From NCBI GenBank assembly GCA_030917485.1, contig JAUPUP010000216.1:1-42967 (forward strand): a stretch of 42,967 nt of DNA. Reading direction: 5' to 3'. Below the pieces are notes generated by a model, which was not told the origin of the DNA, did not search any database, and worked only from the letters and a program-made list of their open reading frames with translations. A program made the translations under genes and the position numbers. Source of the stretch: Pseudomonadota bacterium. Lineage in GTDB: Bacteria; Pseudomonadota; Gammaproteobacteria; Burkholderiales; UBA11063. Positions 30,582 through 40,083 of the stretch are shown here, piece by piece; position 1 is the stretch's first letter; each line of letters opens with the position of its first letter.

Positions 30582-30605
30582 ATTATAATCATGATAAAGT
30601 CTGAG

Positions 30606-30624
30606 ATTGAAAGCCGAAGAGTAT
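30606..30624 (+). repeat. Copy of the moaD-repeat right end before the glycosyltransferase
   Basis: ATTGAAAGCCGAAGAGTAT matches 17 of 19 bases of the right end of the repeat before moaD (39810-39828). In both places the motif stops within one base of an ATG start codon, and its AAGAG may serve as the ribosome site. No left end is seen here. Confidence 0.45.
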
Positions 30625-30625
30625 A

Positions 30626-31222
30626 ATGTTTGTAAAGCGGATGTTTGATGTGGTTTTATCCTGTTTAGGATTGATTATATTAATTCCGCTATTTATTATA
30701 GTTGCTATTTTAATTAAACTTACCTCAACTGGTTCAGTGTTTTTTTGTCAAAATAGAGTTGGTAAAAATGGGGTTATATTTAAAATTATCAAATTCAGGA
30801 CTATGATAGAAGCATCTGGCGCGCAAATTACCATTGGCAAAGATTATCGAATAACCTCTATTGGACATGTACTCAGAAAATTCAAAATTGATGAATTGCC
30901 ACAGTTAGTCAACGTATTTTTAGGTGAAATGTCTTTAGTTGGACCTCGTCCAGAAGTACCCAAATATGTAGCCATTTATCCAGATAGTATTCGTCAAATA
31001 GTTTTATCGGTACGTCCTGGAATCACTGACTGGGCATCGCTTAGTATGATCAATGAAAGTGAAATTTTAGCTAAATCATCCGACCCAGAGGCAGAATATA
31101 TAAACATAATAATGCCGAAAAAATTAGAGTTTGCGGTCAAATATGTACAAACGAGGACGTTTTGGCAAGATTGTGTTATACTGGTTGCCACATTAAAAAA
31201 AATGTATTCTTTGTCTTCTTGA
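30626..31222 (+). CDS. Undecaprenyl-phosphate sugar phosphotransferase (PglC-like)
   Basis: A monotopic phosphoglycosyltransferase (198 residues) that loads the first sugar-1-phosphate onto the lipid carrier at the inner membrane. It has one N-terminal hydrophobic helix (about 8-30) with the Pro turn (IPLF). KIIKFRTM and the catalytic Asp89-Glu90 in KIDELPQL follow, then LGEMSLVGPRPE and RPGITDWASLS. This is the small form without the extra membrane helices of WcaJ and without an acetyltransferase domain as in neisserial PglB. It follows the aminotransferase by 44 bases. Confidence 0.9.
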   Translation: MFVKRMFDVVLSCLGLIILIPLFIIVAILIKLTSTGSVFFCQNRVGKNGVIFKIIKFRTMIEASGAQITIGKDYRITSIGHVLRKFKIDELPQLVNVFLGEMSLVGPRPEVPKYVAIYPDSIRQIVLSVRPGITDWASLSMINESEILAKSSDPEAEYINIIMPKKLEFAVKYVQTRTFWQDCVILVATLKKMYSLSS

Positions 31223-39619: not shown

Positions 39620-39661
39620 TAAATTCTCTGCTTTTAAATTTTCAAGTACAAGCGCTATATG

Positions 39662-39678
39662 TTAGGGACACGTCCTAA
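39662..39678 (+). terminator. Weak hairpin after moeA
   Basis: TTAGG (39662-39666) pairs with CCTAA (39674-39678), plus one G-T pair, around a short loop. The sequence after it is only moderately T-rich (GTTTATTATGTTT). It may attenuate transcription between moeA and moaD, or be part of the repeat region that follows. Confidence 0.3.
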
Positions 39679-39704
39679 GTTTATTATGTTTAAAATATAC
39701 TTCT

Positions 39705-39828
39705 ATACTCGCAGTATTTCGATTTTGGATGCGAAATATTGCGTAAGATACGACGACATGTACAAATAAGTACATGAGGAGTAGATTACAAAATATGACA
39801 AAATCCAAAATTGAAAGACAAAGAGTAT
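39705..39828. repeat. 124-bp palindromic repeat before moaD
   Basis: The left end (39705-39730, from ATACTC to ATTTTGGAT) and the right end (39803-39828, from ATCCAAAAT to GAGTAT) are inverted repeats matching at about 21 of 26 positions. Inside are two hairpins: 39710-39721 with 39732-39743 (11 of 12 pairs) and CATGTAC/GTACATG at 39757-39776. The loop of the first hairpin is complementary to 39803-39811. The element stops exactly at the moaD ATG. Its internal hairpin resembles the one in the MITE-like elements. It could be a mobile repeat, a structured leader, or both. Confidence 0.6.
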
Positions 39829-40083
39829 ATGCAAATTTATTTTCATGGTTTTGGTGCCACACGTATATTAAGTGGTTATATGCTTGAAATTGATCCGCTG
39901 ACCAGTATCGCTGGAATTCGCAAGAAACTTATGCAGTCAATTGAAGCTCAAGAAAAATATGCCTCCGTATACGATATTTTGAGTACTACTGTATTTGCCA
40001 CTGAGCAGCAGGTTTTTTCTGATGAACAACTAATTGTGAGCGATACCACGCTCCATTTATTGCCTCCGGTGTGCGGTGGATAA
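39829..40083 (+). CDS. moaD: Molybdopterin synthase sulfur carrier MoaD
   Basis: Small ubiquitin-like subunit (84 residues) carrying sulfur as a C-terminal thiocarboxylate. It ends in LLPPVCGG; the Gly-Gly tail is essential for activation by MoeB. The chosen ATG gives MQIYFHGFG, fitting the first beta strand of the fold. A TTG at 39811 is in frame but would place the inverted-repeat end inside the coding region. The 3' end overlaps moeB by 8 bases, so carrier and activating enzyme are coupled in translation. Confidence 0.88.
   Translation: MQIYFHGFGATRILSGYMLEIDPLTSIAGIRKKLMQSIEAQEKYASVYDILSTTVFATEQQVFSDEQLIVSDTTLHLLPPVCGG

Follow-up and report, generated by a model that had tools for sequence, protein, structure and literature searches.

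In two species of the genus Aquella, many right ends of a short IS630-type repeat lie on the start codons of genes, and this association is very probably non-random. The repeat in front of moaD in the DNA analysed here (the window, a stretch of 42,967 nucleotides) is almost certainly a member of this small non-autonomous transposon family. The best explanation overall, to which we give a probability of about one half, is that IS630-type MITE copies have been retained as leaders at start codons. As judged from the sequences, what appears to be new is the one-end, right-only abutment of start codons in two species; an IS630-type MITE is itself of a known kind. Promoters, IHF sites and RNase sites are known cargo of small bacterial transposons. 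If our explanation is true, mobile DNA would rewire translation instead of transcription, via one end placed on the starts of polA, glmM, dnaJ, secE and mnmG, and genes would be seen turning dependent on a transposon end; the right-end pattern is countable in public genomes.

The repeat between moeA and moaD

The genes around moaD form a tight run, in which neighbours touch or overlap (37369/37366, 38400/38393, 40083/40076, 41152/41152 and 41592/41559). The sole exception is the gap of 209 nt between the moeA stop (39619) and the moaD ATG (39829). The features of this gap, and further parts of the repeat family in the window, are listed below.

570–608, − strand: solo left-end remnant of the repeat family, directly after a tRNA gene (484–556)
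30582–30625, + strand: second right end of the repeat in the window, solo; it fills a 44-nt gap and abuts the sugar-transferase ATG at 30626
39620–39703, + strand: stretch from the moeA stop to the repeat, 84 nt, containing GGGACACGTCC
39704–39829, + strand: whole repeat, belonging to subfamily A of the IS630-type MITE family in Aquella; its right end is the A of the moaD ATG
39704–39730, + strand: left terminal inverted repeat, starting with TA
39710–39743, + strand: hairpin 1 of the sequence-only reading (arms 39710–39721 and 39732–39743), absent from the minimum-energy fold
39743–39789, + strand: apical hairpin 2 with internal loop, the place of GGGACGCGTCCC-type modules in some other copies
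39777–39781, + strand: AGGAG within the internal loop of the apical hairpin, a candidate Shine-Dalgarno sequence for the leader frame
39795–39887, + strand: putative leader frame of 30 codons, MTKSKIERQRVY..., overlapping the moaD start in another frame
39803–39829, + strand: right terminal inverted repeat, with 18–20 of 28 positions as in the IS630-type ends of the genus
39829–40083, + strand: moaD, so named by its position and neighbours; the small MoaD-like product ends in GG

The 84-residue moaD frame has no match in NCBIfam or Pfam; its start agrees with those of MoaD-like frames in three relatives, G010, G002 and G007 (G numbers denote the compared genomes, and G000 is the genome of the window). 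In these relatives the moeA–moaD gap is ∼14, ∼14 and ∼5 nt, respectively, and the element is absent from all three, which bears out the claim of the sequence-only reading that it interrupts an otherwise tightly overlapping operon. The 84-nt stretch left of the repeat is also missing from the three relatives. It has no second copy among the own-genome survey loci fetched, and on this ground it was ruled out as another repeat.

The repeat is 126 nt in length and carries no transposase frame. Its arms are 27 nt each and 81% complementary, so the imperfect inverted ends, previously noted as 26 bp, are real; its last base (39829) is the A of the ATG, and the reported coincidence of repeat end and moaD start holds as well. 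In a pattern search, TATACTC-N11-ATTTTGGAT occurred without mismatch at these two sites of the window only; with up to three mismatches, five matches were obtained in the window compared to 1.21 expected, and none of 100 shuffles reached five.

The predicted RNA fold is one single long hairpin of −45.1 kcal/mol; shuffled sequences gave a mean of −16.35 (sd 2.9), and none of 200 equalled it. The sequence-only reading had proposed that the loop of hairpin 1 is perfectly complementary to the right end just before the start codon, and that the RNA could switch between two folds. The complementarity is indeed exact, as ATTTTGGAT (39722–39730) is the complement of ATCCAAAAT (39803–39811); however, this pairing makes up the innermost third of the terminal repeat, 17 nt 5′ of the ATG. 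The two folds are alternatives of very unequal energy. Forcing hairpin 1 gave −29.5 kcal/mol, at a cost of ∼16 relative to the long hairpin, and a balanced switch between two pseudoknot-free folds was rejected on these energies. In the predicted fold, the stem base includes the A of the moaD ATG as a paired base; for this reason, control of moaD translation by a putative leader element is plausible. When the window was searched with Rfam, only two tRNAs reached the gathering threshold, and the repeat matched no known RNA family.

A dispersed family with IS630-type ends

BLAST with the element found 42 places in G000. R1, a covariance model of the repeat's right half, gave 86 matches in G000 and 81 in G005; the G000 list counts at least two copies a second time via their opposite strand. 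With up to 150 candidates scored per genome, R1 matched in 12 of the 23 genomes of the genus, and G009 and G011 are without any R1 match genome-wide. In a DNA search of 61 genomes, matches were found in eight, all within Aquella, which is assigned to the family Neisseriaceae in NCBI; the 38 genomes from other families gave no match. The 42 BLAST places and 86 model matches in its own genome, together with the IS630-type ends described below, support the earlier guess that the element is a mobile repeat.

An IS630-family transposase gene (Pfam DDE_3) is present in G000, on C14. The right end 3′ of this gene reads GTCCAACTTTCAAGTTGATTGAGTATA, and related IS630 copies and remnants have left ends such as TATACTGCTCGTAATTGAAATGTGGACT. 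Compared to these IS630 ends, the repeat ends are identical at 15–25 of 28 positions; the best match (25/28) is the left end of the left-extended subfamily C, and the window copy has 18–20/28 at its right end and 15–17/28 at its left end. Because of the shared ends, we regard the repeat as an IS630-type MITE, similar to RUP. The copies are short and dispersed, they have terminal inverted repeats and no transposase frame, and empty orthologous sites were found, all of which belongs to the description of a MITE. TA is present at both ends of many copies. A TA target duplication would fit this pattern; the ends themselves read TATA and moaD offers no aligned nucleotide-level empty site, and for the window copy the TATA ends leave the duplication ambiguous. 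One pair of ends, 1 kb apart on C129, was considered as the autonomous parent and rejected, the interval being an ordinary-looking 292-residue frame.

The copies have common end points and differ in size by GGGACGCGTCCC-type modules in the apical loop or by a left extension. We examined the fold across 17 distinct near-full-length copies from eight genomes, with the structure derived from the same sequences. The consensus hairpin preserves 96.1% of the pair cells. Covariation, to which the sequence-only reading had looked for support, was checked among the repeat copies and is there: changes on both sides occur in 23 of 42 pairs (71 cells; the shuffled mean is 10.8, and 0 of 500 shuffles reach 23), with a covariation score of 0.328, compared to 0.153 for shuffled and 0.021–0.073 for slid alignments. 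Judged from this alignment, the pattern shows that the hairpin is kept, whether at the level of RNA, of folded DNA or of inverted DNA; pair covariation alone would not prove RNA function, since mobile inverted-repeat DNA can give the same result. Subfamily A is probably older than B, C and D, considering its greater divergence.

Two further variations were observed. In some G000 copies (e.g. L041, L042 and L046), the apical loop contains one to three GGGAC-N-GTCCC-like palindromic modules, which look like small hairpins gained one at a time. Tandem arrays with a period of ∼126 nt are present in L196 (G005:C150:19000–23300), L197 and L009 (G021); their inner copies are without the GAGTATA end.

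Right ends at start codons

We called an end fused if it lies −6 to +5 nt from an ATG that opens a frame of at least 70 codons. The counts rest on fetched stretches around 85 of the 86 matches in G000 (C57 omitted), 81 of 81 in G005 and 46 of 47 in G021; nearly all genomes are drafts, and starts were predicted from frames. Throughout, the two kinds of ends were located by different models (87 vs ∼45 positions), and the 20 sequences from which the right-end model was built include some fused copies. In G000, 22 of 82 distinct right ends are fused compared to 0 of 59 left ends (Fisher p = 2e-6). For G005 the corresponding numbers are 16 of 57 and 0 of 50 (p = 1.4e-5). The bias was not shown in G021 (right ends 4/42, left ends 1/33; p = 0.38). 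When only copies bearing a left arm were taken, and compared to the same left ends as above, fused right ends numbered 8 of 55 in G000 (p = 0.002) and 13 of 41 in G005 (p = 9e-6), with copies near a locus edge dropped (6 of 82 and 1 of 57, respectively).

Among right-facing copies located no more than 150 nt from a start, 22 of 52 are fused in G000 and 16 of 20 in G005, whereas random landing on TA upstream of genes would predict 8.8% and 7.4%, respectively (binomial p = 1e-10 and 3e-15; for this expectation, frame length served to call the genes in these stretches). Within G000, subfamily A accounts for 21 fused copies out of 44 and B, C and D together for 1 out of 38, with the subfamilies defined after the data were seen. 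The left arm is undetected in 13 of 21 fused but only 8 of 55 non-fused copies of G000; in G005, 13 of 15 fused copies keep it. The most frequent offset in G000 is −1 (TATG; 13/22), and the G005 offsets range from −3 to +4. The closest match of the window copy, on C13, is 90% identical, and both are fused at offset −1. Six short fused copies of G000 (L049, L175, L172, L019, L166 and the one at 30625 of the window) consist of the last ∼35–45 nt only and are without AGGAG.

The fused frames are real genes. We searched 21 of the 22 fused G000 frames by Pfam (a 102-residue frame was left out); the matches are PolA, MnmG, an exo/endonuclease, UppS, GalE, SecE, a GFO/IDH oxidoreductase, a HhH-GPD glycosylase, GlmM, DnaJ, RapZ, an ABC protein, BolA, SbmA, an M50 peptidase, GpsA, PlsY, MurD and the sugar transferase of the window, and moaD and a 233-residue frame gave none. 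For UppS, RapZ, GlmM, DnaJ, MnmG, GpsA, PlsY, GalE and the window sugar transferase, the Pfam match starts within 10 residues of the N-terminus. The six of 16 fused G005 genes searched by Pfam are ETF-QO, RnfH, glycogen phosphorylase, an asparaginase-family, a LysE-type and a polyketide-cyclase-family protein. No cross-species pair was found among the fused sets of G000, G005 and G021 by blastp at 1e-8, so that the fusions look like separate events. In the 265 nt upstream of glmM, the model matches in G000, whereas all of the 17 other species lack a match there. For ten genes in G009, G011 and G003, starts were located at 19 of 30 loci, some of them doubtful, and none of these 19 has a model match (E 0.1) upstream; the other 11 loci were missed by the seed pattern and left out of this count.

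Outside the fusion count, the repeat lies just upstream of the start of coaE in both G000 (L161, C153) and G021 (L197, C98). It also lies just upstream of a MSGIINIATKAAYLAGN gene, which we take to be suhB-like, in G000 (L033, C10) and G021 (L198, C47). Since these two genes carry the repeat in both genomes, some copies were perhaps inherited, and the two insertions possibly come from a common ancestor.

Pairing of the fused leaders with the anti-Shine-Dalgarno sequence averages −1.9 kcal/mol in G000 (n = 21), −2.5 in G005 (n = 15) and −2.0 in G021 (n = 4), compared to −5.0 for native leaders (n = 24) and −3.3 for shuffles; such weak pairing is odd for housekeeping genes. No displaced Shine-Dalgarno sequence was seen by eye left of the full-length fused copies. 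Native genes have a G peak at −11 (n = 23), and in the window the spacing from AGGAG to the leader ATG is 13 nt, farther than in native genes. A leader ATG is present in 20 of 22 fused copies vs 41 of 60 others in G000 (p = 0.047), in 12 of 16 vs 18 of 41 in G005 (p = 0.043), and in 0 of 4 fused copies in G021. Among the 21 fused G000 copies listed, the leader frame is open to or past the gene start in 17; 14 of these end within 30 nt of the ATG or read in frame into the gene (polA), a count that is weak because early stops are likely in AT-rich DNA. Changes in the leader codons are not in excess at third positions (22/40/25 in G000 and 13/25/26 in G005), and an internal stop occurs in 3 of 20 fused leaders of G000 and 3 of 12 of G005; a conserved leader peptide was ruled out on these two grounds.

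Retained leaders as a proposed explanation, rivals and known repeats

The order of events that we infer is insertion, displacement and retention. An IS630-type transposase would once have mobilised the copies, with TA dinucleotides as its sites, and a copy landing with its right end on a start codon would displace the gene's native ribosome-binding region. Because its right ∼40 nt would now act as the leader of the gene, such a fused copy could no longer be removed. In G000 the left half would then be free to decay; most fused copies of G005 still have the left arm, so such decay is not a general outcome. Retention by dependence is the reason that we favour for the fused copies, at roughly even odds. 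In the moa operon, the copy would add a long RNA hairpin, with the A of the moaD ATG in its base. Translation of moaD may then be initiated mainly by ribosomes that have loaded at the AGGAG of the element and read the short leader frame, opening the base of the stem before they restart at the moaD ATG. moaD would thereby be uncoupled from moeA and its expression probably lowered, as expected from the pairing of the start codon's A in the stem base. Coupling to the leader frame is our favoured start mode for the fused genes, although only tentatively: the higher frequency of the leader ATG in fused copies of G000 and G005 speaks for it, and the long AGGAG spacing, the unconserved peptide, the six short copies and the four fused G021 copies speak against it. 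Shine-Dalgarno-independent initiation on the A-rich right end is a possible alternative. A wider reading, in which the MITE right end is a portable translation leader, put repeatedly on the starts of unrelated housekeeping genes, independently in at least two species, and driving translation without the usual Shine-Dalgarno sequence via an element-borne leader frame or a Shine-Dalgarno-less initiator, is doubtful in our judgement; the copy at moaD would then be an example of such a leader.

Targeted insertion is still a live rival beside retention, although we consider it rather unlikely. The transposase, or the transcribed or translated state of the DNA, would steer oriented insertion of subfamily A to TA at starts, and no function would be required. 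The leading offset of −1 in G000, which creates TATG, agrees with such a bias, as do the fused sets of G000, G005 and G021, which share no orthologous pair and look like independent events, and the fusion of both the window copy and its best match on C13 at −1. However, the G005 offsets are scattered, and subfamilies B, C and D of G000, with similar or better IS630-type ends, are fused in 1 of 38 cases only. These same subfamilies, and G021 with no clear bias, behave as expected of neutral MITE insertions without consequence, which come to lie at start codons by chance; for the family as a whole this is very improbable, given the excess of right over left ends (22/82 vs 0/59 and 16/57 vs 0/50) and the binomial values of 1e-10 and 3e-15 against TA sites.

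Two other explanations assign a function to the element. The element may be a putative RNA element of the Correia or NEMIS kind, in which RNase III cuts the hairpin and sets the stability of the moeA and moaD message, the position at the start codon being secondary. The long stem of −45.1 kcal/mol and the double changes in 23 of 42 pairs (0/500 shuffles) are in line with this, and Neisseria Correia elements bind RNase III and are cleaved or protected, according to passages of PMC2649163. However, 13 of 21 fused G000 copies, in which a left arm is undetected, cannot form the long hairpin, and we regard this explanation as unlikely. The right end, which is purine-rich and lies directly 5′ of the ATG, might also donate a conventional ribosome site, with AAAGAG as a usable Shine-Dalgarno sequence. 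At offset −1, however, the GAG ends 3 nt 5′ of the ATG, compared to the native G peak at −11, and the fused leaders pair more weakly than both native and shuffled ones. Since they pair so poorly (−1.9 and −2.5 vs −5.0 kcal/mol native), simple donation by AAAGAG is unsupported and disfavoured, and we consider it highly improbable.

RUP of pneumococcus is a 107-bp non-autonomous repeat of 108–110 copies, with IS630-like ends and TA targets, and is mobilised by IS630-Spn1 (PMC2229807, PMC3049150); it is over-represented between convergent genes (PMC3049150). Like RUP, the Aquella repeat is non-autonomous, with IS630-type ends and putative TA targets. Different from RUP, it resides in an unrelated host, and start-codon fusion by one end is not described for RUP in the passages cited. 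Correia elements (CREE, NEMIS) of Neisseria are mostly 104–108 or 153–157 bp in length, with target duplication and hairpin RNA (PMC2649163). They share with the Aquella repeat the family Neisseriaceae and the hairpin RNA; this likeness is drawn from descriptions, and the ends of the Aquella repeat read TATACTC-N11-ATTTTGGAT. By a table footnote, the final A of one Correia element in Neisseria is the A of an ATG, and the distances stated in the same table are 22–138 bp (PMC2649163). In the part of the paper cited, fusion is thus a single footnote, with no family-wide one-end pattern, different from the Aquella repeat.

ERIC is structured once transcribed, with orientation-dependent effects (passages of PMC2229807), and boxC is able to provide a start codon (passages of PMC3049150); in the portions cited, start-codon abutment by one defined end is not described for ERIC, BOX and other small repeats. 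Our literature search on MITE and IS630 repeats together with start codons or ribosome sites found no systematic one-end association, and a word search of one review (PMC10969869) gave no mention of start codons, ribosome sites or IS630.

Several Xenorhabdus genomes (L279, L282, L285, L295, L301, L305, L318, L321 and others) contain a different repeat whose terminal ∼20 bases, ACTTGAAAGACGAAGAGTATA, agree with those of the Aquella repeat; the part to the left of them is dissimilar. Inspection by eye of the 15 places listed showed no consistent start-codon fusion. ACTTGAAAGACGAAGAGTATA is present at 13 of these 15 places, with most of its positions fixed by the search pattern, and its occurrence in both Aquella and Xenorhabdus points to a widely shared IS630-type end.
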